DNA of 64,000 nucleotides from a bacterium (lineage in GTDB: Bacteria; Eisenbacteria; RBG-16-71-46; CAIMUX01), in the NCBI GenBank assembly GCA_030431975.1, contig JAUIHP010000004.1, positions 1-64,000 of the forward strand, given 5' to 3'. The notes under the pieces were generated by a model that saw nothing but the letters and a program-made list of their open reading frames with translations, did not search any database and had not been told where the DNA came from. Shown one piece after another: positions 6,849-55,471 of the stretch (position 1 is the stretch's first letter; each line of letters opens with the position of its first letter). A program made the position numbers and the translations under genes.

Positions 6849-7451
6849 ATGAGCTACGTCAAGCAGGTTGCTGAAGAGAACGCCTCGGGCGCCATTCGCC
6901 GGGTCTACGACGCCGCTCGGGCCCGCGACGGTGAAGTTTCGGAACTCGTGCAGGCGACCAGCGTCGACGCCAAGTCGACCCAGGCCTTCCAAAACCTGGA
7001 AACGAACCTCATGAAGGGCAAGGTTCCGTTGGGGGAGAACGGCCCCGAGCGCCGGGCCCTCGTCGGGATCGTGGTCGGCAACGCGAACGTTTCCTATTAC
7101 TGCACGCACGCCTATGCCAAAGAGTACGCCGATGAGACCGGCAACAAGAAGCTGGCCGAGCAACTGACGCTCGATTACCGGAAGGCTCCGCTCGAAGATG
7201 CGGACATGGCCCTTTGCAACTACGCCGTCAAGTTGACGCTGACGCCCGGTGACATGACCGAGGAAGACCTCGAGAAGATGAGGGAGACCGGCCACAACGA
7301 CGACGCCATCGTCGCGGCGACGCAGATCGTGGCCTACGTCAACTACACGAGTCGGATTGCCAACGCCCTCGGCGTCGAGCCCGAGGTCTGGATGATGGCC
7401 GAGCCGGAAGACTGGATGAAGCGTCGGGCGAAGAGCTTTCTGAAGAAGTAG
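6849..7451 (+). CDS. Peroxidase-related/carboxymuconolactone decarboxylase-like protein
   Basis: 200 aa from the ATG at 6849, which follows the Shine-Dalgarno AAGGAG with 6 nt spacing. An ATG 57 bp upstream lacks one. The all-helical sequence resembles the AhpD/CMD superfamily, in particular peroxidase-related enzymes. The usual AhpD CxxC is replaced by a single Cys in SYYCTHAYAKEY, so classical AhpD redox activity is doubtful. The last 113 bp overlap the 3' end of the convergent uvrA. Substrate unknown. The family assignment is moderately sure. Confidence 0.75.
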   Translation: MSYVKQVAEENASGAIRRVYDAARARDGEVSELVQATSVDAKSTQAFQNLETNLMKGKVPLGENGPERRALVGIVVGNANVSYYCTHAYAKEYADETGNKKLAEQLTLDYRKAPLEDADMALCNYAVKLTLTPGDMTEEDLEKMRETGHNDDAIVAATQIVAYVNYTSRIANALGVEPEVWMMAEPEDWMKRRAKSFLKK

Positions 7452-10449
7452 GTGTTCCTGCAGAAGTAAGAGTCCCAGCAGGGGTCAGAGTTCCAGCAGA
7501 CGTAAGTGCCTGCCCAGTGATCGAGGCCTCCACGTCTATCAGGCCTTCGACCGGTCCCGTGTAGAGCACCTTCCCACCCGCGTCCCCACCCCCGGGACCG
7601 AGATCGATCACCCAATCGGACTCCCGAATAAAGTCGAGTTGGTGCTCGACGACGATCACTCCGTTGCCGAACTCGACCAACTGACGCAACGCAGCGAGAA
7701 GCTTCCGGATGTCCTGCGGATGCAAGCCCGAGGTCGGCTCGTCGAACAGAAAGATCTTTCGTTCCCGGCTCGAACCTTCCGCGATCAAAGACGCGAGGCG
7801 AAGCCTTTGTGCTTCTCCGCCGCTCAGGGTCGAAGTGTTCTGGCCGAGCCGTAGGTAGTCGAGTCCGACGCGAATGAGCGGTTCCAGTCGCCGATGGGCT
7901 TCCTTTTCCTGGGAGAAGAACTCCAGAGCTTCCGTCACGGTCAGGTCGAGGATCTGAAGGATCGACTTACCGCGCAGAGTCACTTCGAGCACGTCCTCGC
8001 GGAAACGCTTTCCCTTGCAGACTTCGCATGTCACTTCGACATCGGCCATGAAATGCATTTCGAGAACGACGGTGCCGAGGCCCTTGCACGTTTCGCAGCG
8101 TCCGCCTTCCACGTTGAACGAGAAGTCGCCGGGACGAAGTCCGTGCTCCTTTGCTTTCGGAGTGGCCGCCAGACGTTTCCGAATGAGGGCAAGGAGGCCC
8201 GAGTAGCTGACCAAAGTGGAACGGGTCGAGCGTCCGAGCGGGTTTTGGGAAACGAGAAGGATCTCTTCGAACGCGTCGAGACCTTCGATCTCGCGGCACT
8301 GGCCGAGATCCTCGACAGACTTGCCGAAGTGACGAAGGCCGTTCCGGTAGAGCACATCATCGACCAGTGTCGACTTCCCGGATCCGGAGACTCCCGTGAT
8401 GACGACGAGTCGGTCCATCGGGATCTCGACGGTCTCAGCGTGCAGGTTGTGCTGGCGAACGTCGTGCAGTCTCAGCAAACATTTCGGTGTTGAGTCGGCA
8501 AGGAGCATCGTGTGACCCGCTGTACTCGTCGCTTGAAAGAAGTGCGGATGCTCGCTGGCAAAGTCTTCCGGATCGCCCTCGAAGAGAACCTCACCGCCTC
8601 GTTCTCCGCCCGAAGGTCCCAGAACGATCAGGTGATCGGCGCCCAATGCGATCTCGGGGTCGTGCTCGACGACGACCGCCGTGTTTCCTTCGTTGCAGAG
8701 AGACCGCAGAATCTCGAGCATCCGCCGGGTGTCCGCAGCGTGCAGTCCCACCGTCGGTTCGTCCAAGACGTACAACGTCTGGGTGAGAGACGTCCCCAAC
8801 GCGGAGGCCAGTCGAATGCGCTGCGTTTCTCCTCCCGACAAAGTCCGCGCCGTTCGGGCGGGGGAGAGGTACTGCAGCCCGACTTCCTGCAGATAGCGCA
8901 ATCGCTCACCGATTTCTTCGAGAACGAGTTGAACGCGCGGCAGGCGAGCTTCAGAAAACAGCTCGGGTTGCAGGAACGTTTCCAGCTCTCCGACGGAGAG
9001 GTGTTCGACTTCCGAAAGATTCCTGCCTCCCAGAGTAACGGACCGGGCCGAGGGGTGAAGTCGCGTGCCTTCACAGTCAGGACAGGTTTCATATCCACGG
9101 TAGCGGGCCAGCATGATTCGAACGTAGGCGCGGTATCGCTTGCGCTCGAGGCGTTCGAACAGCGCCTCGACGCCGCCGAACCCGTGCCCGCCGGAGAAGA
9201 CCCACTCCTGCGCGGTCGACGGAAGCTCGTGGAACGGCGTGTCGAGATCGACCTCCGCGTCCGCGGCCGCGAGAAGCATACGGCGCCGATAGCCGGAGCC
9301 GGTTTTCGTTTCGAACGGCGCGACCGCGCCTTCACGCAGGGTGAGGCTAACATCGGGAACGACTTTGTTCCGGTCGATGGTGATGATGCGCCCGAAGCCG
9401 TTGCAGGTCGGACAGGCCCCGAGAGGTGAGTTGGGAGAGAAGAGCTGGGGGCGAAGCGGTCGGCTCCGAACTCCACAACTCGGACACGACAGTCCCTCGA
9501 CCAACGTGGTCACGGGCTCGGTCTCACCCAGGCGAAAGACGGAAGTTCGGCCGGCGCCGAGGCGCCACGCGGCCTCGATCGACTCGAGGGCGCGGCCCCG
9601 TTTCAGTTTCTCCGGAACAAACCGGTCGATGACGATGCGGACGCGGCCGGTCTTGTAGGGTGGACTCCAGTCGTGGACTTCGCCGCCGTCGTAGACTCTC
9701 GCGTATCCCTGTTCCTGATAACCGAGGGCGACCGCTGCTGCCATTCCGCCACTCTCCGGCTCCGGCGAGTGACGTGCGACCTTGGCCGCGAGGGTCGTCC
9801 GGGCGAGCTTCGCGTCCGTTCGGTTCGCTCCCTTCGTTGCCTTCGATCCCTTCGTTCCTTTCGATCCCTTCGTTCCCTTCCTTCCTTTGGCTTTGCTTGA
9901 GCGGGATCGCGTTTCTTGTTGGGAAGTCTGACCCGAATCGGATTCAGACGTGTCGTTGCGACCCGGCAGACGCACTTCAGCCACCAGAACGTATCGGTCT
10001 CCGGCGGGCAGGTCTCGCAGGGCCTGGGCCGCGCTTTCCGCCGTTTGCAGAACCAACTCGGTTCCGTCCTCGGCGCAGTGCGGCGTTCCACCGTGGGCGA
10101 AGAGTAGGTGCAGTAGATCGGAGAGTTCCGTGATCGAACCCACCGTCGACCGGGCGTTGCGAATCGAGACCTGCTGCTTCAGTGCGACGGGCGGTTGGAT
10201 TTCGCCGATGTGATCGACGTCAGGGCGGTCCAACCGTTGGAGAAACTGTCGCGCGTAGGTGGAGAGACAGTCGACGAAGCGCCGCTGCCCCTCTGCGTAG
10301 AGGACGTCGAAGGCCAGGCTCGACTTGCCGGACCCGGAGACTCCGGTCACCGCCGTGAGCTTGCCGAACGGGATCCGACAGGTGATTCCCTTGAGGTTGT
10401 GAGTACGGGCTCCCTCGATGAGACAGGCAGGAGCCTTGCGTTTGGCCAA
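7339..10449 (-). CDS. uvrA: Excinuclease ABC subunit UvrA, with insertion and extended C-terminus
   Basis: UvrA is the damage-recognition ATPase of nucleotide excision repair. Both ATPase halves are complete: two Walker A motifs (GVSGSGKSS and GVSGSGKST), two LSGGE signatures and two Walker B motifs (LYVLDEPTVGL and FLFDEPTSGL). Cys pairs of the zinc modules are present (CPSCGV with CPTCNG; CETCKG with CEVCKG). An insertion of Lys-Gly-Thr/Ser repeats follows the ETRSRSSK region. The C-terminus adds about 60 residues of Thr/Ser/Ala-Gly repeats and a basic tail, overlapping the convergent gene. I chose TTG at 10449 because GGGAG lies 9 nt upstream. Longer starts would overlap the divergent gene at 10566. 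Confidence 0.93.
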   Translation of the reverse strand: MAKRKAPACLIEGARTHNLKGITCRIPFGKLTAVTGVSGSGKSSLAFDVLYAEGQRRFVDCLSTYARQFLQRLDRPDVDHIGEIQPPVALKQQVSIRNARSTVGSITELSDLLHLLFAHGGTPHCAEDGTELVLQTAESAAQALRDLPAGDRYVLVAEVRLPGRNDTSESDSGQTSQQETRSRSSKAKGRKGTKGSKGTKGSKATKGANRTDAKLARTTLAAKVARHSPEPESGGMAAAVALGYQEQGYARVYDGGEVHDWSPPYKTGRVRIVIDRFVPEKLKRGRALESIEAAWRLGAGRTSVFRLGETEPVTTLVEGLSCPSCGVRSRPLRPQLFSPNSPLGACPTCNGFGRIITIDRNKVVPDVSLTLREGAVAPFETKTGSGYRRRMLLAAADAEVDLDTPFHELPSTAQEWVFSGGHGFGGVEALFERLERKRYRAYVRIMLARYRGYETCPDCEGTRLHPSARSVTLGGRNLSEVEHLSVGELETFLQPELFSEARLPRVQLVLEEIGERLRYLQEVGLQYLSPARTARTLSGGETQRIRLASALGTSLTQTLYVLDEPTVGLHAADTRRMLEILRSLCNEGNTAVVVEHDPEIALGADHLIVLGPSGGERGGEVLFEGDPEDFASEHPHFFQATSTAGHTMLLADSTPKCLLRLHDVRQHNLHAETVEIPMDRLVVITGVSGSGKSTLVDDVLYRNGLRHFGKSVEDLGQCREIEGLDAFEEILLVSQNPLGRSTRSTLVSYSGLLALIRKRLAATPKAKEHGLRPGDFSFNVEGGRCETCKGLGTVVLEMHFMADVEVTCEVCKGKRFREDVLEVTLRGKSILQILDLTVTEALEFFSQEKEAHRRLEPLIRVGLDYLRLGQNTSTLSGGEAQRLRLASLIAEGSSRERKIFLFDEPTSGLHPQDIRKLLAALRQLVEFGNGVIVVEHQLDFIRESDWVIDLGPGGGDAGGKVLYTGPVEGLIDVEASITGQALTSAGTLTPAGTLTSAGTPTSSESSSPDASSSLPARPSSRPRARRRGRWQSDSCS
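7454..7507 (-). repeat. 18-bp tandem repeat in uvrA C-terminal codons
   Basis: Three 18-bp units encode LTSAGT, LTPAGT and LTSAGT. They begin 3 bp past the stop of the convergent peroxidase-related gene and are read through as the low-complexity C-terminal extension of UvrA. Confidence 0.75.
9829..9892 (-). repeat. 9-bp tandem repeat inserted in uvrA
   Basis: About seven units of a 9-mer near TCCCTTCGT (plus strand) encode KGT/KGS/KAT triplets, a lysine-rich loop. The insert lies in the N-terminal half, within the region that normally holds the UvrB-binding and signature modules. Confidence 0.85.
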
Positions 10450-10565
10450 GTGTTCGATCTCCCTGCGGACGGACGCCGGAGCGTACCAGAAAGAGGCCGG
10501 GTGCCGCGGGTCTCGAATCCCCGCTAGAATCTGGAGATGATGAATCCGGAAGCGAAGAACCGAAG

Positions 10566-12083
10566 ATGATGACCCGGCGACCATTGACCCGGCCACCATT
10601 GACCCGACGAAGCCCCCGCCTCTACAGGCTTTCGCTTCGGGCGAAGCTCCCCATGTTTCTGTTGATCGCCTGCGCATCGACGGCCCTCACCGGTACGGCC
10701 ATCGAACGTCATGTCGACGAGAACGATGACGGACGTCGGGACACCGTCGCAGATTTCTATGAGTACGACACCGACGGGGACGGAACGGCGGACCGAATCG
10801 TCGACTGGGTCGACGTCGACGAAGACGGCGAGGCGGATCGGCAGCTTATCCTGTCTCTCCCCGGCGGGCAGCCCGGTCCGAGATCCTTCGGCTTCCTCAT
10901 CGAAGAGATGAAGCCAGGCCCGGCCACCACAGCAGCCGGTGCCAGGCGGACGTTTTGGCCGGTCCTGGACGGCGTCTACATACAGCCGCGGGACCAGTTT
11001 CATTGCGACTTCCACGGTGATCTGTTCTTCACCTACATGAAGTACGACTCGCGGGAGGCAAAGTGGGTCGTCCAGGAAGAAAACCCCTACTGCTTCTACG
11101 ACCCGGACGGGGACGGTCTCAGTGAGGAGTCACTTCGGTTCGCGGGACTGGGGCCCTCCATCTCGTCGATTCGCTGGAGCTTCGACTGTGACAACGACGG
11201 GTCGCTGGATCGTGGGAAGGCTTCCGCGAGCCCCACCCACGCCGGCGAACGGTCAAACGACCGCGTGACCGACCGCGCGAATGACCGCGCTGCTGATCGC
11301 GAGGGCGACCGTGCGAACACCCGGGTCGACGACCATGCCACCGACCGTGTCGACTATTCGGGTACGTACGACTATGACCTTTCCCTCACCGCCACAGGAC
11401 GTGCGCGCGTTCCCGCGGCGCTGTCCCGAACCATTCCGGTGCGCGGAGAAGATGTGATCACTCTCCTCGATTGGAGTCACGCGCGGGACTACGCGAAGAA
11501 AGCCGTCATGCTTCGGTCGCTCCTCGCCTTTGATGAAAACGACCGCAACGTCGACGTCAAGAATCCGGAAACAGGGGAGCGTTGGGAGGGAGTCATCGCC
11601 AAAGTGCCGCCCGGATTCAGCCAGATAGGGAATCCGAACTGCGGGACCGCGAACAAGCGGTACGAACTTCGAAACGTCCCTTCCCATTTTCTGGAGATCT
11701 ACTTCAGTCCCGTCGACGGCCGCATTCATCTGAAGGGCGCCGGAGAAGGCTGGATCGAGATCGACCGCGACGATGACGGCACCATCGACGCTCGCCTGGA
11801 AATGCAGGACCGCAGCGGTGACGGAACCTTCGACACCTGGTTCTGGGACGGCGACAAGGACGGCGTCTACGAACACGCCTACCGAAAGCCGGAGGGCCCG
11901 GAGTGGGATCCGATTCCCGTTGCCATCGACTTCCACGAACTTCATCGGTATGACTCACTCATTCGTGAGAGGACGGGGCTCGAGCAGGGTGAGCGGTTTC
12001 GTGCCGAGGTCGAACTGTGGTCGGCGCTGGGACGTTTCGTTCCGATCGACAGCTTGAAGACGGCCGGGGCCGTCCAGGATTGA
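10566..12083 (+). CDS. Secreted Asp-rich protein with calcium-loop-like repeats, function unknown
   Basis: 505 aa. A basic leader with Thr-Arg-Pro repeats runs into a hydrophobic signal segment (KLPMFLLIACASTALTGTA), so export is likely. The mature N-terminus and the C-terminal third carry DxDxDG-type motifs (DTDGDGTADR, DVDEDGEADR, DRDDDGTIDA, DGDKDGVYEH) like those of thrombospondin type 3 and EF-hand-like calcium loops. Between them is a stretch of nine DR-rich tetrapeptides. Ten base pairs separate it from the Nramp-type transporter gene, so the two may be co-transcribed. No enzymatic motif recognised. Confidence 0.75.
   Translation: MMTRRPLTRPPLTRRSPRLYRLSLRAKLPMFLLIACASTALTGTAIERHVDENDDGRRDTVADFYEYDTDGDGTADRIVDWVDVDEDGEADRQLILSLPGGQPGPRSFGFLIEEMKPGPATTAAGARRTFWPVLDGVYIQPRDQFHCDFHGDLFFTYMKYDSREAKWVVQEENPYCFYDPDGDGLSEESLRFAGLGPSISSIRWSFDCDNDGSLDRGKASASPTHAGERSNDRVTDRANDRAADREGDRANTRVDDHATDRVDYSGTYDYDLSLTATGRARVPAALSRTIPVRGEDVITLLDWSHARDYAKKAVMLRSLLAFDENDRNVDVKNPETGERWEGVIAKVPPGFSQIGNPNCGTANKRYELRNVPSHFLEIYFSPVDGRIHLKGAGEGWIEIDRDDDGTIDARLEMQDRSGDGTFDTWFWDGDKDGVYEHAYRKPEGPEWDPIPVAIDFHELHRYDSLIRERTGLEQGERFRAEVELWSALGRFVPIDSLKTAGAVQD
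10571..10609. repeat. 15-bp tandem repeat at divergent gene starts
   Basis: Two and a half copies of GACCCGGCGACCATT lie just inside the start of the Asp-rich protein gene, encoding Thr-Arg-Pro-Leu repeats. On the other strand the same DNA would encode a Met-Val-Ala-Gly-Ser repeat if uvrA began further upstream. Confidence 0.8.
11247..11354 (+). repeat. 12-bp tandem repeat encoding DRxx tetrapeptides
   Basis: Nine in-frame 12-bp units near GACCGCGCGAAC encode ERSN, DRVT, DRAN, DRAA, DREG, DRAN, TRVD, DHAT and DRVD. They form a charged linker in the middle of the Asp-rich secreted protein. Confidence 0.85.
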
Positions 12084-15592: not shown

Positions 15593-18500
15593 TCACTGGA
15601 CCCGGGTCACTTTGGCCGTAGCCGTCCGTCCCTCCGTTCGAACCTGATAGAAATAGACGCCGGGCGGCGTGCGTTCTCCGAACTGGTTCCGTCCGTCCCA
15701 GGCCAGACTCCATTCTCCGGCGTCACGGGTTTCGGTTGCATACTTCCGAACGAGGCGTCCTCCCGCGTCGTAGATGGAGATTCCGACGGCACTGGGCGCG
15801 TCCAGTTGAAAGCGAAGCACCGACTGATCCTGGAACGGGTTCGGGGCCGCCGACCACGAGACGAGCGGACTCGCGCCCGGTTCGTCGGTCCGCGGGCCGC
15901 CCTCCGGAGCGTCCACCGTGATTCCCGGCTCGTGCGAGACCAGCACGTACTCGCCGCCTTCGGCGTGCCAATCGATGTTCAGTTCGACGACATCGTGCAT
16001 CGTCCGCGGGTCGCGCTCCACAGCCGCCTGGAACAACGGATCCGACGTCACGATCGCCGGCGCGTCGACGTCGTAGTGGTAGACCTCTTTCACTTCCAGC
16101 ATCAAGGGATCGGAGTCGCCATCGAAGTTCTCGATGGTCCACTGGAACGAGTCCATCGCTCCATCTGCGGCCGGGATGATGGTGGTCCCGTTCGGGCCGA
16201 GATCGACGAACCTGTTGAAGAACGGAGTAACGATCCGGATCTTTGTCACCCGGTCACTGCGGTTGGTTACCAGCATCTCTCCGTGGGACTCAAACGGAAC
16301 GATTTCGAAGGGAACGGAGTCGTTCTGATCGAGTTCCAACTCGGAACTGCGACTGACCGTGACGGTGGCATCGAGCGGGGCCACGTCCAGGTTGGCCTGG
16401 AAGAGATCGAACTGCACCGCGGAGAGGTCGGATGGATGGGCCGAGAAGCGATAGGCGCGTCCCAACTGTGGCCGGATCGCTTCACGGACCGACAGATACT
16501 CGTAGTACCAGGGCTCGTACTGTTGGAACCCACCGCAGGCATTGAGAGCGATGTTGATGTAGTTGTTGAGTTCGGTGCCCCAGGGCGAGTTCGTGAGAAG
16601 GTCGAACGCCGTGAAAACTGCATTCCCGAAAGGTCCGGCGGCTGCCATGCAGAACGTCGTGCCCGCCGCAGGAGTCCAGCCGCCCTTGACTCCCAAACCG
16701 TTGATGTTGGGATTGTCGAGGATCCACTTCTGGAAGCTGTCGAACTGGTGCATGAGAAGCCCATCGGGCTGCCAACGCTGCGCGGTGCAGGTCGGAGTGG
16801 TTGCGATCTCCCGGAACAGTTCGTTCTGCAGAGCGGCGCGGGTCAGAATGGCCATGTCGTAGGCCGTTGAGTAGTGGTCTCCCAGGTCGTAACCGACCGC
16901 TTCCTGCTCGAAACCATTCGCGTTGTTGAAGCGCGTATCGTACATGCCCAGCTCGATCGCTCGGGTGTTCATCGCCGCGATGAAGGAAGGGATGGACTTC
17001 CACGGCCCCTGGGCGCCGTGCAGCATGTCACCGATCGCATGTGCTCCGTCGTTGGCGGAGATGTGAAGAGTTAGATAGATCAGGTCGCGAAGCGTGAGCC
17101 GCTCGTCTTCGATGAGATTTGCGGTGGATCCGCCGATGTCCGTCTCGACCCAATCGGGAACGGTATAGGTGGCGTCGAGTGAGACGTAGTCGGGATGGTT
17201 GGTCGGCAATTGGGTGCGTTCGCAGGCCAGCAGCACCGTCATGATCTTGGTCGTGCTCGCAATGAAGACCTGGTCGAAGGGCTTCTGGGTGAAGACGAGT
17301 TCCCCGGTGCAGTTCATGGCGCATGCGGTTTTGTGCGTATGGAAATAGGACTGCCGCCATGGGGCAAGCACGTGGACGGATCCCGCATTGGCGTCTTCTC
17401 CCGGAGAGCCGACGACCAACGTTCCTTCTTCGGCATCGTCGAACTCTCCGCCGAGGGAAACAGCCTCGGCGAAGCGGTCACCGGTTTCGTTGAAGTCCCC
17501 GATGATGCCCTGGTTGTATCCGTACCATCCGTGACCTCCGAATCCGGACGGACCGCCCAATGAGACGTGGACGACTCCGGAAGAGTTGTTCGGGAAGTCC
17601 TCACCCGGTGCGCCGATCGCCAGGTCGTGCCAGGTGTCGTTGAGGAAGCGGCCGGTCGCAAGTGAGAACCCGAACTCGTCGTGGTGTTCGGGCGTATCTC
17701 CGAAGTCCGACTGGGTCAGCGCATACCCCGAACCTGCCGGAGGGCCGCCGGCTTGCCCGGTCGCGATGACGATTCGTCCGGCCCATTCGGCCGAACCGAT
17801 CGTTCGCTTGGGTTCGCCGACGATGAGAATGTCGTAGCCCGGAACGGGCGCTACCGCGACGGCATGACCGAATGCCGCGCGACCGGAAAGTGCGCCCGCC
17901 AGGTTGTTGTAGCGCGTGATGCCCTGGTTGTGATCGATGCCGGCCGGTGTGCCCGGGATGATGTGAACCGCTCCCGCGTTGAGATAGGAAGTGGTGGCAT
18001 GCCGTCCGGGCGAGCCGACGATGAGATCCGGGTTCGAGTCCCCGATGATGTTCCCCGTGGCTAGCGAGAACGCGAACTGGTCGCTGTTCTGGTAGTCCAG
18101 CCCCAGGTCTTCGGCGGACGTCTCCGTCACCGTGCCGAAAGGTCCGGTGTTCACGCCGTACGAAACGAAGACCGACCCCGCGGTCACGCCGCGGCCGGAA
18201 GCTCCCATTGCGATGTCCGGATAGCCGTCGTTGTTGAAGTCGTCGATGGCGAGAGAAGCGCCGAAGTACTCGTTGGTGACGGATGTTCCGCCGATATTTT
18301 CCTGGCCGAATCCGAACCAGGCCGTCAAACCGGTCGGTCCACCGTAGAAACCGTAGACGCGACCGGCATTCGTGACCCCACCCACGATTTCTCCCGGAAC
18401 GCCGATGAGGAGGTCGGAGTATCCGTCGCCGTTCAGGTCGGCGGCAGCGAGAGCGTGTCCCAATCTCGACCCGTCATTCAAAGGCACCCCGAAGATCCCC

Positions 18501-18808
18501 GGTAGGATGAGAGCCGCAGCTACGTGGGTCAGCCCGTGCTCCGAGCCGTAGTTGATGGTGACCGCGCCGGTTTCCGTGTGGTTCTGGCTGTCCTCATCCG
18601 GACTTCCCACCGCGAGGTCTTCGTAGCCGTCGCCGTTGAAGTCGCCGTAGGCCAGGGCCGCGCCAAACCGGTCTCCCGACTCGCGGAATCCGTGGGACTC
18701 CCGGCCCTGACGAATGATCGAGAGGTGCGCTTCGGCGATCGAGCTTTGTAGCAAGAGGACCGCCATGGCCGCGAGCAGCCAGTGGGTTCGTGGTGAGGTC
18801 CGGAGCAT
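15593..18808 (-). CDS. Secreted FG-GAP propeller / D-Ala-D-Ala carboxypeptidase fusion with C-terminal sorting domain
   Basis: 1071 aa with a signal peptide (residues 1-27). Seven FG-GAP repeats (about 42-480; for example FGAALAYGDFNGDGYEDLAVG) suggest a complete seven-bladed integrin-alpha-like beta-propeller with calcium loops. A peptidase S11 (PBP5-like) domain follows: Ser518-Thr-Thr-Lys521 is the SxxK motif, Ser584-Ala-Asn586 the SxN motif and Lys708-Gly-Gly the KTG-like motif. The tail has PNPF near residue 990 and ends with PGVYFYQVRTEG, a FlgD/T9SS-type sorting module. GAGGAG precedes the ATG. Known S11 enzymes trim peptidoglycan pentapeptides. The propeller could instead redirect it to another ligand. 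Confidence 0.9.
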   Translation of the reverse strand: MLRTSPRTHWLLAAMAVLLLQSSIAEAHLSIIRQGRESHGFRESGDRFGAALAYGDFNGDGYEDLAVGSPDEDSQNHTETGAVTINYGSEHGLTHVAAALILPGIFGVPLNDGSRLGHALAAADLNGDGYSDLLIGVPGEIVGGVTNAGRVYGFYGGPTGLTAWFGFGQENIGGTSVTNEYFGASLAIDDFNNDGYPDIAMGASGRGVTAGSVFVSYGVNTGPFGTVTETSAEDLGLDYQNSDQFAFSLATGNIIGDSNPDLIVGSPGRHATTSYLNAGAVHIIPGTPAGIDHNQGITRYNNLAGALSGRAAFGHAVAVAPVPGYDILIVGEPKRTIGSAEWAGRIVIATGQAGGPPAGSGYALTQSDFGDTPEHHDEFGFSLATGRFLNDTWHDLAIGAPGEDFPNNSSGVVHVSLGGPSGFGGHGWYGYNQGIIGDFNETGDRFAEAVSLGGEFDDAEEGTLVVGSPGEDANAGSVHVLAPWRQSYFHTHKTACAMNCTGELVFTQKPFDQVFIASTTKIMTVLLACERTQLPTNHPDYVSLDATYTVPDWVETDIGGSTANLIEDERLTLRDLIYLTLHISANDGAHAIGDMLHGAQGPWKSIPSFIAAMNTRAIELGMYDTRFNNANGFEQEAVGYDLGDHYSTAYDMAILTRAALQNELFREIATTPTCTAQRWQPDGLLMHQFDSFQKWILDNPNINGLGVKGGWTPAAGTTFCMAAAGPFGNAVFTAFDLLTNSPWGTELNNYINIALNACGGFQQYEPWYYEYLSVREAIRPQLGRAYRFSAHPSDLSAVQFDLFQANLDVAPLDATVTVSRSSELELDQNDSVPFEIVPFESHGEMLVTNRSDRVTKIRIVTPFFNRFVDLGPNGTTIIPAADGAMDSFQWTIENFDGDSDPLMLEVKEVYHYDVDAPAIVTSDPLFQAAVERDPRTMHDVVELNIDWHAEGGEYVLVSHEPGITVDAPEGGPRTDEPGASPLVSWSAAPNPFQDQSVLRFQLDAPSAVGISIYDAGGRLVRKYATETRDAGEWSLAWDGRNQFGERTPPGVYFYQVRTEGRTATAKVTRVQ

Positions 18809-19030: not shown

Positions 19031-20854
19031 CTAGAACGGAACGATCGCCCCTCCCTGCAGCTGAATCCCTGCGGCCCCGCTCGCCGAATCGACGACAAAG
19101 TTTCCGAAGGCGGCCCCGTTGCGAAGGATTGTCCCCGAGCCTTTGTAGATCCGGTCGATGCGGTTGCTGTCCACCCAGCCGTAGCTCAGCCCGGAGAAGC
19201 TGAAGGAGACGCTCCCATTCGTTCCCTGGTTGCGGACGGAATTCGTCTCGTTGCTGGTCGAGCTGCTTCCGCTGGTTTGGAACTCGTACGACTGGTCCTG
19301 TGCGATCGTCACCGAAGTCGTACCGGACGTCAGTGTGCCGGAGAACGAGTAGTTGTCCGATGTTAGCGAGTACCCTTCACCACCGGTGTCGATGAAGAAG
19401 GACTCCTGCCCCTGGATCTGCCCGTTGACTTCCCAGGTTCGGCCGTCGAGTAAGACGGCGCCTTGCACGATTTGGTCAACGTTGTTGGTAGTGCTGTCCT
19501 TCGGAAAGCGTGCGCTCACCACGCCGAGTGCGACGTTGGGTCCTTCGATCGTGTACTGCGCGCCGTGGGCGCGATCGATGGACCGCCAGTCTTCACAGTC
19601 GATACTCGACTCGTCCGTTTCCAGGGAAGTCACGCGAACGTCGTAGGAGACGCTGTTCAGAGTGACCACGAGCCGATCGTTCGGCGTATTCGAATACTCG
19701 AACTGTCCGGAGCCGGGTGGGTTTTCGGTTACCGATCCTGTGACGGTGGCCTGACCCGTGGTGCAGCTGGCAAAGAGCACGGCTTGGAAGACGAACTGGT
19801 TGACCTCTCCAATCGTGCTCTGCAGGTTGAATCCCGCCAGGTATGTCCCGATCAGTAGTTCAAGTTCGTCCGCGGGAATCGGCCCACCGCCGCCGGTGAT
19901 GGTCACGACCGCTTCGCCGAAGGCCGATGGATCTGCCGCGCTGGTGGCGCGGACACGGACCTGACTTGGATTGGGAACGGAGTTGGGTGCGGTGTAGAGG
20001 CCGCCGCTCGTGACGGTTCCGTTCGTGGCTCCGCCGGTCACCGTCCAGTTGACTGTCGTGTTTGCTGTCCCGGAAACGGAGGCACTCAGTTGCAGTGTCG
20101 CGCCGACCTCCACGCTTCCGGTCGGCGGAGTGACCGATACGGTGATTTGGCCGCCGCCGCCTCGATCGAAAAGAACCGTTGCGGTTCCGGTTGCGCCTCC
20201 ATCGGCGACGCTCGTGGCCCGAATCGTTGCCGAGTTGTTGCTCGGCAGGGTTGCGGGCGCCGTGTAGAGGCCGGACGATGTGATGGTTCCGTTGGTTGCG
20301 CCGCCGTCGACCGCCCAGTTCACGCTTTGGTTGTCCGCGCCGATGACCTGAGCTGAGAAATTCTGAGTCGCTCCTGCGCCCAGTTGCACGGATGCCGGAA
20401 CGATGACCACGGCCACGCCACCGCCCTCGTTGCTGACGATGACGGTTGCTGTGTCCTCCGCAGTCTGATCTCCATTCGTGGCGACCGCCTTCAAGGTCTT
20501 TTGCCCATTCGGGACCGTGCTCGAGTTCCATTCCAGGAAGTAGGGCGAATCGGTTTTCGTCCCGATGAGCGCGTCATCGATGTAGAAACTGACGCTGGCC
20601 GCGGCGGCGCGGCTTTGGGTCGGCCACGCGGAGGAGGCTGGGCGATCTCCGGCCACAGTGGCGCGGACTCCAACGGCGGTCCCGGTGACGGTGCTGCCGT
20701 CGAGGGGCAAGGTCAGGCTCACGCTGAGGCCGATCGGGACCGTCGATCCGTCGTCGGAGTCGCTGCCGCATCCGATCGTCGTGACCAGACTGGCCACGGT
20801 GATGAGGGACAGGACGAAAAACGTCGAGTAGCGGGGGAGCAGTGATAGAAGCAA
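19031..20854 (-). CDS. Lipoprotein with bacterial Ig-like repeats
   Basis: 607 aa from TTG at 20854, preceded by AAGGAAAGG. A hydrophobic leader ends in a lipobox (VTTIGCG). Three Ig-like domains follow: one near residues 40-145 and two clearly duplicated ones (about 148-235 and 236-320) that share NWTVTGGATNGTVTSGGLY and TAP motifs, the pattern of Big2-type surface domains. The remaining 270 residues are unrecognised, with beta-rich sequence and few cysteines. It probably sits on the cell surface or the periplasmic face. Domains of this type often mediate adhesion, but that is not shown here. Confidence 0.8.
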   Translation of the reverse strand: MLLSLLPRYSTFFVLSLITVASLVTTIGCGSDSDDGSTVPIGLSVSLTLPLDGSTVTGTAVGVRATVAGDRPASSAWPTQSRAAAASVSFYIDDALIGTKTDSPYFLEWNSSTVPNGQKTLKAVATNGDQTAEDTATVIVSNEGGGVAVVIVPASVQLGAGATQNFSAQVIGADNQSVNWAVDGGATNGTITSSGLYTAPATLPSNNSATIRATSVADGGATGTATVLFDRGGGGQITVSVTPPTGSVEVGATLQLSASVSGTANTTVNWTVTGGATNGTVTSGGLYTAPNSVPNPSQVRVRATSAADPSAFGEAVVTITGGGGPIPADELELLIGTYLAGFNLQSTIGEVNQFVFQAVLFASCTTGQATVTGSVTENPPGSGQFEYSNTPNDRLVVTLNSVSYDVRVTSLETDESSIDCEDWRSIDRAHGAQYTIEGPNVALGVVSARFPKDSTTNNVDQIVQGAVLLDGRTWEVNGQIQGQESFFIDTGGEGYSLTSDNYSFSGTLTSGTTSVTIAQDQSYEFQTSGSSSTSNETNSVRNQGTNGSVSFSFSGLSYGWVDSNRIDRIYKGSGTILRNGAAFGNFVVDSASGAAGIQLQGGAIVPF

Positions 20855-21035
20855 GAGACGACCTTTCCTTACAGATCAAAAAGCATCAGCCCGTTCACGA
20901 ATCCGTTGGCTAGTGGTCGGGCCGCTGCAGTCCGCCACCCTCTCAAGGCGACAACGAGCGGCCGAGGGCGACAGCCTTATCGCTCTTCCTCCACAAAGGT
21001 TGCTCCGGAAGCGACGAGGGTAGCACGGGATCGAA

Positions 21036-21064
21036 TTGCTCCGGCCCCGGGTCCGGCCTATTCT
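21036..21064 (+). promoter_or_regulatory. Predicted sigma70-type promoter for leaderless EEP gene
   Basis: TTGCTC, 17 bp, then TATTCT. The -10 box ends 7 nt before the GTG at 21072, so transcription would begin at or next to the start codon. No Shine-Dalgarno is present. Confidence 0.5.
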
Positions 21065-21071
21065 GCCTTCC

Positions 21072-22262
21072 GTGAACGAACTCTGGCCCGGCATGCCCTA
21101 CACGACCTTCCGCGAGGCGGCGCTTTCCTGTTCCACGGAAGCCGAGTTTCGGAACTCGGACTACTTTCGGCAGCACGGGACGCGTCTCCGGGAGTTCCTG
21201 GAGACCCCCCAGGTTTTCTCGAACCCGAACCCGAACCCGAACCATGAGCCCGCCGAACCCGCGGCAGCTCACGGTCCCGCCGACCTCCCGCTTCGAGTCG
21301 TCCAGTGGAACATCGAGAAGGGCAAGGAGCTGGACCGAATCCGGGAACGGCTGACCCAGGAGCCGGACCTGGCCCGAGCGGACATCTACTGCCTGAACGA
21401 AGTCGACTGGGGAATGGCCCGGTCCGCCGGAAACGCGGACATCGCGCGGGAACTGGCCGAAGCCCTGGGATGCCACTGGGTCTACCTCCCTTGCTATCTG
21501 GAGTGCACCAAAGGGCCCCTGGAAGACGAGATGCAGGCCCCTGGGGACAACGAAAGAGGGCTCCACGGGCTGGCTATTCTCTCGCGCCACCCGATCCGTG
21601 ACGCCCGGGGCGGCCCCCTTCCGCACTGCTGGGACTACTTCGACTACTTCGAGAAGCGCTTCGGCTACCGCCAGGTCCTCGCCGCCCGAATCGAGGTCGG
21701 GGGACGGGACATCGTGGTCGCAACGACCCACCTGGAGGTCCGGAACGTTCCGGCCTGCCGGGCTCGTCAAATGAAAGTCGCCGTCCAACATCTCTCCGCG
21801 GCGGCGAAAGATTGGGGAGTGGAGGCTGCCGTCCTCACCGGCGACTTCAACTCGAATTCCTTCCGGCGGGGAGGACTCTGGAACACGGTCCGGGAGTTCC
21901 TCCGCATCGTCACGACGCCGGAACACGCCCTCGACGCCGAACTTCGGGCTCCATTCGACCGGGAACCTCTGTTCCGGGAACTGCAGTCGGCCGGCTTCCA
22001 GTTTCGGGAGCTGACCGACGGAGAGGCCACGGCCGAGCAGCTCCTGGGGTCGGCCGAGGATCTGGAGATTCTCCCGAAGTGGCTGGCGGACTGGGTCTCC
22101 CGGAGGTTCGGGCTCGGGTCCCGGATCATCCATATGCGCCTCGATTGGATCACGGCGCGAAATCTTCGGGCGGTTGTGGAGTCCAAGACCGTAGCTCGGG
22201 GTAGAGACCCACAACATCCGGCGTCGGATCACGATGTGGTCTTTTGTGACCTTACGTTCTGA
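21072..22262 (+). CDS. Endonuclease/exonuclease/phosphatase (EEP) family hydrolase
   Basis: 396 aa from GTG at 21072. Family motifs are in order: VQWNIEKG (start of the fold), CLNEVDWG (metal-binding Glu), GLAILSRHP, VATTHLEV, LTGDFNSNS (catalytic Asp and Asn) and the terminal ASDHDVVFCDL (catalytic His). The set matches the Mg2+-dependent phosphodiesterase fold of exonuclease III, sphingomyelinases and related enzymes. No signal peptide, so it is probably cytoplasmic. The substrate cannot be deduced. A short Asn-Pro repeat (about residues 51-57) precedes the catalytic domain. A TTG at 21036 is in frame but coincides with the predicted -35 box. Confidence 0.85.
   Translation: MNELWPGMPYTTFREAALSCSTEAEFRNSDYFRQHGTRLREFLETPQVFSNPNPNPNHEPAEPAAAHGPADLPLRVVQWNIEKGKELDRIRERLTQEPDLARADIYCLNEVDWGMARSAGNADIARELAEALGCHWVYLPCYLECTKGPLEDEMQAPGDNERGLHGLAILSRHPIRDARGGPLPHCWDYFDYFEKRFGYRQVLAARIEVGGRDIVVATTHLEVRNVPACRARQMKVAVQHLSAAAKDWGVEAAVLTGDFNSNSFRRGGLWNTVREFLRIVTTPEHALDAELRAPFDREPLFRELQSAGFQFRELTDGEATAEQLLGSAEDLEILPKWLADWVSRRFGLGSRIIHMRLDWITARNLRAVVESKTVARGRDPQHPASDHDVVFCDLTF
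21221..21243 (+). repeat. 6-bp tandem repeat encoding Asn-Pro run
   Basis: Nearly four copies of GAACCC encode NPNPNPN in the linker ahead of the EEP catalytic domain. The period preserves the frame. Confidence 0.75.
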
Positions 22263-22433
22263 CCGCCGGCTGGAATCCGGTCACACCTGGCGAGGCGGGC
22301 CGGTAGCCCCAATGGGAGCCAGCAGATATACTCTCGAATTCCAGAAGGGCGGGGGGAGTCCGGGAAACCGACCGGGGTAAACTCCACAAGCAACTCTTTG
22401 CGTTCTGCGTTCCACTCAGGAGAAGTGTTCACG

Positions 22434-24380
22434 ATGCGATCAGCCGTAGCCCCTCGTTCATGGATTTGGATCCTGTCCGCCTGCCTGGCCCTGGTTGCCG
22501 GAATCCAATCGGTGTGGGCCGCCCCGGGGGACGACCCCTTCGGTGCGATGGACGACACGCCGACCTCGGTGGATGTCCCGGTCGTGACGGTCCTCTCCCA
22601 TGATGCTCTGAAGCCGGGGGAGACCGGGCACCTCGCAGTGGTCTACGCCGTTCCGCCCCAGTCCCACATCCAGCTCAATGACTTCTTCTACGTCGAGTTG
22701 GCCGAGGGCGCGCCTGCGACGCTGGGTAAGCCGATTCATCCGGCGACCATCGAGTTCATGGACGAGCCGGTCTTCATGGGCGAGACCAAGGTCTTCGTCC
22801 CGATCACGCTGAACAAGGACGCACCGTCCGGTCCGATCGAACTCGAGGTCAAGGCGGGCTACCAGGCCTGTCTGGAAGAGCCGGTCTTCGTTTGCTACGC
22901 CCCGGACGAGAAGTCGAGCACGGTCCGTCTGGAATCCGGAGCCAACCGCGAAAGCTCCCAGAACAAAGCCATCTTCGCTTCGCTGGCGGCGGCCAAGGCC
23001 GCGGGAGGAAGTTCGGCCCACGGATCCGGCGACTCCGACGGTTCCGGCGGCGACGGTGAGGCCTGGTTGGACCAGGCCGAATCCAGTGAGGGGGATACCG
23101 ACCTCGCCGGCCGTTTGGAGGCGGCGCTGGCCAAGGGATCGTTCCTGGCCTTCGTCCTCGTCTTTGTCGGTGGTTTCCTGACCAGCTTTACGCCCTGCGT
23201 CTACCCGATGATTCCCATCACGATCAGCTACATCGGCGGAAGCAGTAAGAGCAAGTTCGGCGGCTTCGTCCTCTCGCTCTTCTTCGTTCTGGGTATTGCC
23301 CTCATGTACTCGACGCTCGGGTTGATTGCCGCGATGACCGGCGGACTCTTCGGATCTGCGATGCAGTCCACTCCCGTGCTCGTGACGGTGGCGGCGGTCT
23401 TTGCCTTGATGGGGGCGTCGATGCTGGGTGCATTCGACCTCGCCCTGCCATCCAGCATGCAGACCAAGCTGCAGTCCGGTCCCCGAACGGGGCCGATCGG
23501 CGCGGTGCTCATGGGAATGGTCACGGGAATCGTGGCCTCTCCGTGCGTCGGGCCCGTGCTCGTCGTCCTTCTGACGTGGGTCGCGCAGAACAGTACACCC
23601 ATCTACGGTTTCTTCCTGCTCTTCACTTTCGCCGTGGGGCTCGGGATGCTGTTCATCGTCATCGGGACCTTTGCCGGCGCGCTCAATGCGTTGCCGCAGG
23701 CCGGTGAGTGGATGGACACGGTCAAGCACGTCTTCGGAGTCATCCTTTTCGGGATGGCCATCTACTACCTGCGCTCCATCATCGGGCCGAACCTGACCTG
23801 GCTGCTGACGGGACTCCTCGTGCTTCTGACCGGAACGGTCTACGGGGCGTTCCGGCCCGTGCCTGAGGATGCCCCGATCAAACTACTCTTCCGAAAAGGA
23901 CTCGGGATCGCGATGGTGTTGTGCGGAGGCTTCGCTCTGCTTCTCGGCTTTGCGGGAATGAGCGGGATCAACTTCGCCACTGCCGGAACCGGCGCGGTTG
24001 CAGGAGGCGGCGGTGGGGCAGCCGAAGCCCATGCCGGCCTCGACTGGGTCGTCAACGACGATGAGGCGGCTCTGGCCCAGGCCTTGTCAGAAGGCAAGCC
24101 GGTCGTCATCGACTTCTACGCCGACTGGTGCACTGCCTGCAAAGAGCTCGATCACAAGACGTGGGTCGACGATTCGGTCCGCGCCGAGGCCGAGCGCTTC
24201 GTGGCCATCAAGATGGACTTCACGGAGAAATCAGATTGGGCGCAGTCGAAGTATCAGGAGTACGGGGTTTCCGGACTCCCGACCGTCATCTTCCTCGACT
24301 CGAGCGGACAGGAGCAGGAGCGGTTCTTCGGTTTCCGGGACGCGAACTCCGTACTGAGTTCGATGCGCGACGTCGACTAA
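22434..24380 (+). CDS. dsbD: Thiol:disulfide interchange protein DsbD
   Basis: 648 aa from the ATG at 22434, 10 nt after AGGAG. A signal peptide ends near SVWAA. The periplasmic N-terminal domain (about 25-190) has two Cys in the YQACLEEPVFVCYAP region. The eight-helix core has the paired redox Cys motifs FTPCVYPMIPI (near 252) and SPCVGPVLVV (near 370). The C-terminal thioredoxin domain has DWCTACKE (Cys near 566). DsbD passes electrons from cytoplasmic thioredoxin to the periplasm, keeping substrates such as TlpA/CcmG-type proteins reduced. A TlpA-like protein (31168-31749) and a thioredoxin (47551-47877) are in the same window. Confidence 0.95.
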   Translation: MRSAVAPRSWIWILSACLALVAGIQSVWAAPGDDPFGAMDDTPTSVDVPVVTVLSHDALKPGETGHLAVVYAVPPQSHIQLNDFFYVELAEGAPATLGKPIHPATIEFMDEPVFMGETKVFVPITLNKDAPSGPIELEVKAGYQACLEEPVFVCYAPDEKSSTVRLESGANRESSQNKAIFASLAAAKAAGGSSAHGSGDSDGSGGDGEAWLDQAESSEGDTDLAGRLEAALAKGSFLAFVLVFVGGFLTSFTPCVYPMIPITISYIGGSSKSKFGGFVLSLFFVLGIALMYSTLGLIAAMTGGLFGSAMQSTPVLVTVAAVFALMGASMLGAFDLALPSSMQTKLQSGPRTGPIGAVLMGMVTGIVASPCVGPVLVVLLTWVAQNSTPIYGFFLLFTFAVGLGMLFIVIGTFAGALNALPQAGEWMDTVKHVFGVILFGMAIYYLRSIIGPNLTWLLTGLLVLLTGTVYGAFRPVPEDAPIKLLFRKGLGIAMVLCGGFALLLGFAGMSGINFATAGTGAVAGGGGGAAEAHAGLDWVVNDDEAALAQALSEGKPVVIDFYADWCTACKELDHKTWVDDSVRAEAERFVAIKMDFTEKSDWAQSKYQEYGVSGLPTVIFLDSSGQEQERFFGFRDANSVLSSMRDVD

Positions 24381-28422: not shown

Positions 28423-29697
28423 GTGACGGACGTTGTAGATTTCCTTCGTCGAAAGATCCTGAACGAAGCCGACGACTCCCATTCCGTCCTCATGCCACTC
28501 GGTGTCACCACTCAGGTCGAAGACGTACTCGAATTCGGCCCAGTCGCCGCGCTCGAGAAGTCCCAGATCAACGCACGTACCCGCGCTGTCGATGTTTCGG
28601 ATGACCCGGTAGAACGGCTCATCCGCGTCATGGAGCCGGACATAGGTGATCAGGTTGTGCTTGTAGTTCATTCCGAAGACCTGAGTCTCCTCCGGATTCT
28701 CGACCGCCTCGAGAACGACTACACGGAGGGTCGCACGGACTTCCATTCCTTCGGTGTACTCCGGCTGGGACCAGTAGAGTGCGAAGTGGGGCCCGCCCTG
28801 ATCGCCTGCGAGGAAGGGGTCGACCTCTCCCCGGATCTGATTACGGATTCGTTCGATATCGCCATCGCCGGCGCCGACGGTCCGGACGATGCCATTGATC
28901 ATCCGAATCGGGTGCCCACCGTTGCGCGCTCCGTAAAAGATGTTCCGATTGAATGTGTCGTCATTGAAGAAAGGATCGGACTCACCGGCCCAAGGGTGGT
29001 GGACCTGAACCGTAACGGCGCCGGCGTCGACGCGCGCTTGATCCATCCTCCAAATGTCCTCCGCTGCTTCATCGACGGGCAGACAGTTCGGGCATTCGGT
29101 CGCCGTGAGGATCTCGACCAGGGCGCCGCGGGTCTGCTCTGCAGGACTCAGATCGAGAGTGACTCGCAGTACGTCGTCGGAGACTTCGATCGTTTGAGGG
29201 GCTTCTTCGATGAACCCTTCGTGTACCAACTGGACCTCATGCGTTCCCACGGGTACGCACTCGAGCGTTGCCGGCGTGACGAGGCCAGTGTCCTCGTCGT
29301 CCAGCCAGATGGCAGCGCCATCCACGTTCGATGTGACTTCGACACCGCCGTTGATCCCGACGATCCAGGCCACGTTGCGGTCTCCGCCGGCTTGGACATC
29401 GACCGTGACTTCGGCTGCCGGAGTGACCGAGGCACACTCCTTCTCGAACCGAAAGGTGCGGGGTCCTTCTTCCAGTTCGAAACGATAGTTCGGACTGGAG
29501 ACGGACGCTTGCTCCAGCACCCCGTCGATGTAGATTTGCCCACCGTCGAAGGCTCCGGCAGTCAGCGCGCTTAGATTGACCGATACCGTACCCATTGTCG
29601 GGGGAGCGATATCGTCCTTGCAGCTCGTCGCTCCAAGAGTCCAAAGAACAGCGGCTCCGACGAGGAGGCAGCTTCTAAAACGTAGTGAGGAATTCAA
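28408..29697 (-). CDS. Lipoprotein with PEGA domain and Omp28-like thioredoxin-fold domain
   Basis: 429 aa. The leader ends at LGATSCKDD, a lipobox. A PEGA-like carbohydrate-binding domain (about 105-170; VDGAAIWLDDEDTG and GTHEVQLVHEGF) is followed by an Omp28-related domain that begins ALVEILTATECPNCLP, with a CxxC at the thioredoxin position. Omp28-type proteins are FCB-group outer-membrane lipoproteins of unclear role. The CPNC pair suggests redox or metal chemistry. It is the third gene of an operon after a TlpA-like protein and a barrel protein, and overlaps the barrel gene by 23 bp. Confidence 0.82.
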   Translation of the reverse strand: MNSSLRFRSCLLVGAAVLWTLGATSCKDDIAPPTMGTVSVNLSALTAGAFDGGQIYIDGVLEQASVSSPNYRFELEEGPRTFRFEKECASVTPAAEVTVDVQAGGDRNVAWIVGINGGVEVTSNVDGAAIWLDDEDTGLVTPATLECVPVGTHEVQLVHEGFIEEAPQTIEVSDDVLRVTLDLSPAEQTRGALVEILTATECPNCLPVDEAAEDIWRMDQARVDAGAVTVQVHHPWAGESDPFFNDDTFNRNIFYGARNGGHPIRMINGIVRTVGAGDGDIERIRNQIRGEVDPFLAGDQGGPHFALYWSQPEYTEGMEVRATLRVVVLEAVENPEETQVFGMNYKHNLITYVRLHDADEPFYRVIRNIDSAGTCVDLGLLERGDWAEFEYVFDLSGDTEWHEDGMGVVGFVQDLSTKEIYNVRHAYVP

Positions 29698-31171
29698 CTT
29701 TCACCCCCTGAAAAGGGTCGACCAGTTTACAGACGCCGCCCGAGCAAAGCTGCCCGCCTCGCAGCTGTCCGCCGGCGAGATTGAGCTGATGCCGATCGCC
29801 GACGGCGATGTTCCATTCACCCCAGACCCAGTTGTCGCGGTCTTCGCGCGGATTGTCCGACCACTCTACAGTTACGGCCCAGGACATGTTTGGTGACTTG
29901 TTTAGCGTAGCGGAAATCACATTGTCACGGTACTCGAGGGGAAAACGCGTGTTCTGCAGGCTCTTGTTCACTTCCTGAACTTCCTGCGTTTCGACCGTGA
30001 GGTCGACACTGAGGACATCGTTCAGGGGGTGGACGAGTGTTCCCGAGTAGGTGATCCGTTCGAAGAAGATGTCGTCGGACCCTTCCCGAATCGTCTCCTC
30101 CGTCTCGGCAGCTCGCAGCACCAGCTCTGAGTGACCGAACCATTGTTCGATTTCGCCATAGGCTTCCCAGGCGGGGAAGTTGCCCTTCCGCGCCACGGTC
30201 TCACCGTAACTGGCAGCGATACGAGTCTGATCCGTCACAGTGAGCAGCGCTTCGACGAGTCCGCCCTTTTCATCTGCAAAGCTGAGATTGGCGACGTGAC
30301 TGCCTCGGTTGAGCAGGGTCGACGCGTGCGACCGAAATGCTGTCGGCGGGTTGATGTTCTCCGTGACGTAGCGAAGAAAGTCTTTGTACTCACCCAGCAA
30401 CTGCAATTGGCCCAGGTACAGGCTCACGTTCGCGTACCCGCCGTGTCCCTGTGCGGGTTCCGATCCACCCTCCCGGAAGTTCCTGGCGTCGCGGACGACG
30501 TACTCCCCGTAGTAGTCGATGTACTCGGTCAGCGATCCGCCGGCGTGGCCTCCGTAGAGCCGGTCACCACCGGGGCGGCCGGTCAGTTCCGTTCCCAGCG
30601 AGTCCGACCAAACGCCCTCGAGCCCCACGGTCACGTTCTTGGGCAGGTAGAAGCTGGCCTGTGCGCCTTTCAGCGTCTGGAACTCGTCCCCAAGGGAGTT
30701 CGTTCCGGAGATGACTTCGAGGGTCACGCGGTCGTTGAGGTCCGCCGAGCCGTAGAAACCATCCAGGACATTGTCGAAGTCGACGGTCTGGTCTTCAAAG
30801 ATGTTCAGGATCAGTCCGCGCCCGAAGGTGGCGTACACGTCACCGACGCGAGCCCGGAAATCATCGGTCTGTACTTCGAGCCAGCGCTTGCGAAGTCCCT
30901 GGACCTGCTCTCCGAAGTCGTTGGGATCCAAACGGCCCGGGTCGGAAGGGGAGTGACTGAGGAAGGTTCCGCCGAGCGTGAAGGCTCCGCGCGAGACGGT
31001 GACGTCGAGGCGGTCGTCGACGACCGTCTCTTCCACATCGTTGTCCCAATAGAACTCAAACTGGTTCGCCGCTTGGATGAACGTATCGTCGCCGAGACCC
31101 AACTGGGCCTCGGCGACGGTGGAAATGACAAGAGCTGTGGCGGCGAGAACGAGAGGGGTTTCTCGCCTCAA
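29675..31171 (-). CDS. Outer-membrane beta-barrel protein (DUF6029-like)
   Basis: 498 aa with a signal peptide cleaved near VAEAQ. The sequence alternates in the manner of barrel strands (for example RLDVTVSRGAFTLGGTFLSH, RVTLEVISGTNSLG and ADKTRI-like segments) and ends in an aromatic residue (VEFLTTF), as barrel proteins do. It resembles FCB-group DUF6029-type proteins. The start overlaps the stop of the TlpA-like gene (ATGA at 31168-31171). The operon context suggests a barrel working with one periplasmic thioredoxin-fold protein and one outer-membrane thioredoxin-fold lipoprotein. Confidence 0.75.
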   Translation of the reverse strand: MRRETPLVLAATALVISTVAEAQLGLGDDTFIQAANQFEFYWDNDVEETVVDDRLDVTVSRGAFTLGGTFLSHSPSDPGRLDPNDFGEQVQGLRKRWLEVQTDDFRARVGDVYATFGRGLILNIFEDQTVDFDNVLDGFYGSADLNDRVTLEVISGTNSLGDEFQTLKGAQASFYLPKNVTVGLEGVWSDSLGTELTGRPGGDRLYGGHAGGSLTEYIDYYGEYVVRDARNFREGGSEPAQGHGGYANVSLYLGQLQLLGEYKDFLRYVTENINPPTAFRSHASTLLNRGSHVANLSFADEKGGLVEALLTVTDQTRIAASYGETVARKGNFPAWEAYGEIEQWFGHSELVLRAAETEETIREGSDDIFFERITYSGTLVHPLNDVLSVDLTVETQEVQEVNKSLQNTRFPLEYRDNVISATLNKSPNMSWAVTVEWSDNPREDRDNWVWGEWNIAVGDRHQLNLAGGQLRGGQLCSGGVCKLVDPFQGVKVEFLTTF

Positions 31172-31749
31172 TTCGAGCCTCCCTCACTCTCAATGCCGAC
31201 GGCAGCCTTCTTCTCCGGAAGCAGAGCCACGATCTCCTGCTCGAGCTTCTTTTCGTCACCCGGACGGTACCCGATGTGAACGGAGTGGATCTTGCCGTCC
31301 TGACCGATGAGGTAGGAGGTCGGGTAGTTGCGGACGCTGTACTGGTTTCCGATCTCCCGCTTGGGATCGAGAATGACCGGGAACTCCCACTTGCGAGACT
31401 TGACGAGCGGCTTGACCTTGGAAACGGTCTTCTGATCATCGCTGGCCACCGTCAGCAGGGTGAAACCCTGAGCTTTGTACTTCTCGTGAATCTCAGCAAG
31501 CTTGGGAAGTGCGATCTGACACGGCTTGCACCAGGTCGTCCAGAAGTCGAGGAAGACGGGTCCTTCCTTCAAGAGCTCGGAGAGCTTGTATTCGTTTCCG
31601 TCGAGAGCCTCGCCGACGAAGTCGGGTGCGGAGGAGGCCCCTTCATCGCCCTCGGCAGCAGCCGGACCGATGTGGGTGAAGAGAAGCGCCAGGGCGGCGA
31701 TTCCGGTGAAGATGGAGCGGCGGCGGTTAAGCATCCCTTGGAAGCGCAT
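31168..31749 (-). CDS. TlpA/ResA-like periplasmic thioredoxin-fold protein
   Basis: 193 aa with a signal peptide ending near GPAAAEG. The thioredoxin-like domain has the redox motif TTWCKPCQIALPKL near residue 75 and the cis-Pro region YPTSYLIGQDGK. Relatives reduce cytochrome c or other envelope thiols and are recharged by DsbD-type proteins, one of which is encoded at 22434. It is the first gene of the three-gene barrel/Omp28-like operon. Its exact substrate is unknown, but the neighbours suggest it serves the operon's own CPNC lipoprotein. Confidence 0.88.
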   Translation of the reverse strand: MRFQGMLNRRRSIFTGIAALALLFTHIGPAAAEGDEGASSAPDFVGEALDGNEYKLSELLKEGPVFLDFWTTWCKPCQIALPKLAEIHEKYKAQGFTLLTVASDDQKTVSKVKPLVKSRKWEFPVILDPKREIGNQYSVRNYPTSYLIGQDGKIHSVHIGYRPGDEKKLEQEIVALLPEKKAAVGIESEGGSN

Positions 31750-55353: not shown

Positions 55354-55471
55354 GGCTTCTACTCCCGGTTGCGACTTCGGCCGAAGTTTTGCGGCTCTGC
55401 TTGCGGGAGACTACGGAGAACGAGGGCGATACGAAAGGTGCTTCCTGGGAGGATGCGCGCGTTCGATCGAA

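Follow-up and report, generated by a model that had tools for sequence, protein, structure and literature searches.

Domain architecture of the 1071-aa protein

The window (the whole 64,000-nucleotide stretch of DNA that was analysed) comes from an assembly of 6.19 Mb in 59 contigs, referred to below as the source genome. Its minus strand carries an open reading frame with an ATG start that encodes 1071 aa, with exactly the limits given in an earlier sequence-only reading. The gene and its domains are laid out as follows.

15593..18808, minus strand: whole gene, 1071 aa, with a signal-like N-terminus, a seven-bladed FG-GAP propeller, an S11 domain, a double beta-sandwich and a T9SS tail
18728..18808, minus strand: signal-peptide-like N-terminus, residues 1-27, read from the sequence as a hydrophobic stretch with SIAEA at its end and H next
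17351..18727, minus strand: integrin-type FG-GAP beta-propeller of seven blades, residues 28-486 (Pfam FG-GAP, blade spacing, model and Foldseek)
18617..18643, minus strand: Ca-type loop of blade 1, DFNGDGYED, residues 56-64 (sequence motif)
18413..18439, minus strand: Ca-type loop of blade 2, DLNGDGYSD, residues 124-132 (sequence motif)
18215..18241, minus strand: Ca-type loop of blade 3, DFNNDGYPD, residues 190-198 (sequence motif)
16523..17350, minus strand: Peptidase_S11 domain (DD-peptidase / beta-lactamase fold), residues 487-762 (Pfam; structure match to K15 and DacB)
15869..16522, minus strand: all-beta region of two beta-sandwich-like units, residues 763-980 (model; no family match)
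15608..15847, minus strand: T9SS type A sorting / FlgD_ig-like C-terminal domain, residues 988-1067 (TIGR04183, FlgD_ig)

The sequence-only reading had placed a propeller, an S11 peptidase and a sorting tail in one chain, and Pfam matched all three: FG-GAP (E 7.9e-41), Peptidase_S11 (E 1e-26, 94.3 bits against a cut-off of 27.6) and FlgD_ig (E 1.4e-10). HMMER recognised six FG-GAP stretches, and seven FG-type blade starts were found at residues 48, 116, 182, 245, 313, 379 and 446. Their regular spacing of ~66 residues and the Foldseek match of the model to the integrin alpha propeller (E down to 2.9e-20) bear out the seven integrin-like blades proposed in that reading. The putative start of the mature chain after the signal-like segment, AHLSIIRQG, is conserved across the family alignments.

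Integrin alpha, which likewise has seven blades with DxDxDG loops, was the top match of the propeller in both sequence and fold. The 1071-aa protein differs from it in that the Ca loops lie chiefly in blades 1-3 and in that it is a predicted secreted enzyme of a bacterium, without an integrin partner. Elsewhere in the source genome (L126, G000:C56:112000-120000), adjoining genes encode large FG-GAP-only proteins, among them a many-bladed one of 1125 aa that also bears a sorting tail; the FG-GAP propeller is therefore an export module of which this genome makes common use.

The AlphaFold2 model, computed from 28 aligned rows, had a mean pLDDT of 88.3 and a pTM of 0.73. Foldseek matched its S11 part to the Streptomyces K15 DD-transpeptidase (1esi; TM 0.84 by target length, rmsd 2.9) and also to B. 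subtilis DacB (3mfd), and in the predicted model both the fold and the motif residues agree with those of solved S11 enzymes. Residues 763-980 were modelled with a pLDDT of 84. Their best PDB matches (virus capsids, PirA and Cry5B) were weak, with TMq at most 0.33, and for this reason a reading as a toxin or as any other fold was dropped.

Occurrence of the fusion

The source genome contains six S11 domains, which belong to two ordinary KTG enzymes of ~400-440 aa and to four fusions of 1071-1089 aa. The four fusions share one architecture and lie on contigs C22 (the 1071-aa gene), C52 and C11 (two copies). Since four copies occur on three contigs and homologs occur in unrelated assemblies, a chimera or assembly artefact was ruled out. 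A profile built from the four fusions retrieved full-length relatives in G006 and G002, which represent two further genera of the order. A second profile, covering the S11 domain and the last blade, added a contig-truncated copy in G039 and no further ones among 47 genomes of the window's phylum. In a second phylum, named here from the label of one genome (G047, Candidatus Krumholzibacteriota), 80 genomes yielded copies in G047 (two), G489, G482, G504 and G480. The fusion was also found in 1 of 392 genomes of Planctomycetota, there without the FlgD/T9SS tail. These three phyla together gave 15 related chains, two of which are incomplete. A divergent propeller-S11 chain was present in 2 of 388 genomes of Verrucomicrobiota; it has an N-terminal extension and a KGG motif, is without the main-family cysteine, and showed no sorting tail. 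The fusion is real and old, and its distribution is patchy and sparse over four bacterial phyla.

The Planctomycetota copy (L042:4989-8216, plus strand) ends in DxDxD-type repeats which resemble a dockerin-like segment and gave no Pfam hit. This suggests that its core may carry a different sorting or anchoring module.

The sequence-only reading had allowed that the two halves might be separate genes in relatives. Such an arrangement was not seen: propeller and S11 domain formed a single chain in every relative found, and the best stand-alone S11 matches begin at the S11 domain. Their motif 3 is KTG except in two proteins of the Krumholzibacteriota-labelled phylum (L174 and L175, in G441 and G442), which have KPG. 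These two keep the NxN motif and, ranked by profile score, come closest to the fusions among the stand-alone enzymes.

An all-against-all blastp of the open reading frames around 16 copies returned nothing beyond shadow frames and sorting tails held in common, and no conserved operon hinting at a substrate was found around them. The domains are already known; the literature searched contained no report of the architecture, no description of a fusion of FG-GAP with a D-alanyl-D-alanine carboxypeptidase, and no function for the fusions.

Sorting tail and export machinery

The C-terminal tail resembles that of T9SS type A cargo, scoring 35.5 bits against the NCBI model TIGR04183 (cut-off 23). It differs from such cargo in being closer to FlgD_ig, and Pfam Por_Secre_tail matched it below the cut-off. 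The source genome encodes SprA (SprA_N, PF14349; E 1e-15; a 2312-aa frame on contig C49) as well as two PorU-type sortases (540 and 456 bits; NCBI cut-off 420), and many of its other proteins bear similar sorting tails. SprA_N was detected in 38 of the 46 genomes searched of the class, against 0 of 14 control genomes. Because the tail passes the T9SS cut-off and SprA and two PorU proteins are encoded, a surface or extracellular location of the 1071-aa protein is likely, which upholds the export by a sorting system put forward earlier. S11 enzymes are normally periplasmic, low-molecular-mass PBPs being taken as enzymes of the cell's own wall, and no report of an S11 domain as T9SS cargo was found in the literature searched.

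Active site of the fusions

The active sites of 13 catalytically intact fusions (~30% identity) were compared with those of 66 stand-alone S11 domains, mostly from the same phyla. The relevant positions in the 1071-aa protein are the following.

17309..17311, minus strand: Cys500, invariant in the fusions, absent from stand-alone S11
17246..17257, minus strand: SxxK motif, S518-T-T-K521, with the nucleophile Ser and the base Lys
17051..17059, minus strand: SxN motif, S584-A-N586
16679..16687, minus strand: altered motif 3, K708-G709-G710 (KTG in ordinary S11)
16535..16537, minus strand: Cys758, invariant in the fusions, absent from stand-alone S11

Ser518, Lys521, Ser584, Asn586, Lys708 and Gly710 were identical in 13/13 intact fusions and 66/66 stand-alone domains. 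The STTK, SAN and KGG motifs named in the sequence-only reading are thus all present, and SxxK, SxN and K-x-G are invariant, but KGG departs from the canonical motif 3 of S11 enzymes, which is K-T/S-G. The middle residue of this motif was Gly in nine of the intact fusions, Pro in three and Ser in one, with no Thr (0/13), whereas the stand-alone domains had Thr in 64 and Pro in 2 of 66; the Fisher p for Thr (4e-13) overstates this contrast, because the compared sequences share descent, which the counts ignore.

Arg was found at position 743 in only 1 of the 13 intact fusions, in contrast to 62 of the 66 stand-alone domains, and the fusions have for the most part lost the NxN motif that precedes the KTG strand. 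From where it falls in the alignment and from what is generally known of the fold, we take residue 743 to be the equivalent of Arg248 of E. coli PBP5, and we read the KTG Thr and the NxN region as further holders of the carboxylate that this Arg binds. In PBP5, Arg248 contacts the carboxylate of penicillin, and likewise that of a cyclic boronate, in bidentate fashion (PMC4979060). With the carboxylate-recognition positions changed in this way, the identity as a D-Ala-D-Ala carboxypeptidase suggested in the sequence-only reading is not supported, although the argument for altered specificity is not strict, because Bacillus DacB-type S11 enzymes also appear in the alignment to be without the Arg and one fusion has KSG.

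Cys500 and Cys758 were both present in 13/13 intact fusions and in two catalytically dead paralogs, compared with 0/66 stand-alone domains. Since the pair occurs in all main-family fusions and in no stand-alone enzyme, a disulfide is suggested, which may pin the ends of the S11 domain and would fit an oxidising extracellular setting. Judged by their sequences, the fusions are a distinct S11 subgroup, set apart by the cysteine pair and by the change in motif 3. They share with the low-molecular-mass PBPs of the S11 family (K15, DacB, E. coli PBP5 and PBP7) the profile, the fold and the order of SxxK and SxN. They differ from these enzymes in having K[G/P/S]G instead of KTG, in the loss of NxN and Arg from most members, in the extra cysteine pair, and in the fusion with a propeller and a T9SS tail, which gives ~1070 aa as against 300-450 aa.

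The two dead paralogs, the second copy on contig C11 (L006) and one of the copies in G002 (L124), are without the Ser and Lys of SxxK and the Asn of SxN, and their motif 3 is changed. Their frames are uninterrupted, and propeller, cysteine pair and tail are kept. Since the open frame and the scaffold are retained in these catalytically dead members, part of the family's job apparently needs no catalysis, which argues that binding by the scaffold has a value of its own. The two did not group in the tree, where they sit on long branches with poorly supported forks, and a single origin is undecided. On contig C11 of the source genome, the dead paralog (19649-22915, minus strand) and a live paralog (52213-55434, plus strand) lie ~30 kb apart in opposite orientation.

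Proposed function and alternatives

We lean, if only slightly, towards the view that the fusions form a small family of serine hydrolases which are exported and probably displayed on the surface, and in which the propeller targets an acyl-enzyme that is probably not a classical D-Ala-D-Ala carboxypeptidase. The architecture, conservation, sorting system and altered subsite are read from sequence; that the protein is exported, binds calcium and a ligand, reacts through an acyl-enzyme and has the substrate proposed here is inferred. Secretion would run first through Sec and then, by means of the C-terminal tail, through the type IX system. The Ca-binding propeller would bind an extracellular ligand, on a surface or in a matrix, and keep the S11 domain there. 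Ser518 would form the acyl-enzyme with Lys521 as base and with assistance from Ser584/Asn586 and Lys708, and the acyl-enzyme would then be hydrolysed or transferred. Since other residues stand in place of the KTG Thr, of NxN and of the Arg that binds the carboxylate, a free D-Ala-D-Ala terminus is an improbable substrate; more likely is another amide or ester, for instance in non-self or modified peptidoglycan or in other extracellular material. That the catalytic residues are kept in most members argues for real catalysis.

More tentatively, the family may consist of extracellular acyl-enzyme hydrolases or transferases that arose from low-molecular-mass PBPs, with a rebuilt pocket that has K[G/P]G, is pinned by a disulfide and is without an anchor for the carboxylate, for a substrate other than D-Ala-D-Ala, aimed by the propeller, and with the dead paralogs acting as partner binders. 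If so, a PBP fold has been recruited for work outside the cell with its acylation machinery kept and its pocket rebuilt, in groups known almost solely from environmental DNA, and the beta-lactam binding of these proteins, together with their substrate, would show the role of the KTG Thr when evolution removes it.

A less probable explanation is that the fusions are exported DD-carboxypeptidases or endopeptidases which, targeted by the propeller, trim or cleave other cells' peptidoglycan or wall material that has been shed, as the secreted predatory enzymes of Bdellovibrio do; action on the peptidoglycan of foreign cells was among the possibilities raised in the sequence-only reading. The S11 fold with five of the six key residues and the predicted T9SS export (tail, SprA and PorU) would fit such a role, and Bd3459, a secreted DD-endo/carboxypeptidase acting on the prey wall, offers a precedent by analogy (PMC3276566). 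Bd0816 and Bd3459 share with the fusions the penicillin-binding fold and export for action outside the producer (PMC3276566), but they are of PBP4-type architecture without a propeller or T9SS tail rather than propeller-S11 fusions, so that the analogy is functional only. Moreover, the positions that hold the carboxylate of the D-residue are altered in nearly all members, and no predation machinery or wall-degrading genes were seen near the 1071-aa gene.

It is improbable that the proteins act mainly as adhesins or receptors, in which the S11 fold serves for binding or structure, with catalysis secondary or vestigial. The integrin-like propeller with its Ca loops and the retention of propeller, cysteine pair and tail by both dead paralogs are what such proteins would show, but all catalytic residues are invariant in 13 members at ~30% identity, which requires selection on catalysis. 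A periplasmic housekeeping or stress D,D-peptidase of the own wall, whose tail only spans the outer membrane or fastens the protein there while the enzyme points inward, is very improbable in spite of the usual location of S11 enzymes, given that ordinary S11 enzymes accompany the fusion in most fusion genomes checked (two in the source genome, one each in G489, G482, G504 and G480), that T9SS tails send their cargo outside, and that most genomes of the source class are without the fusion.

Other unusual genes

Two Planctomycetota genomes (G422 and G306) contain chains of ~700 aa (L182:2435-4516, plus strand; L183:3424-5553, minus strand) in which two serine-hydrolase domains apparently occur in one protein: a class-A-beta-lactamase-like domain and an S11 domain with KTG seem to be combined with a peptidoglycan-binding-like segment. 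The window itself encodes at 53635-55353 (minus strand) a 572-aa protein with an S12 beta-lactamase-family domain (252 bits) and then TPR repeats, a serine hydrolase of the same fold as S11 in another unusual architecture. A UvrA-like ABC ATPase of 1112 aa is encoded at 7339-10677 (minus strand), and a DUF6029 protein at 29675-31749 (minus strand) adjoins an AhpC/TSA-type redoxin and a PEGA-domain protein.
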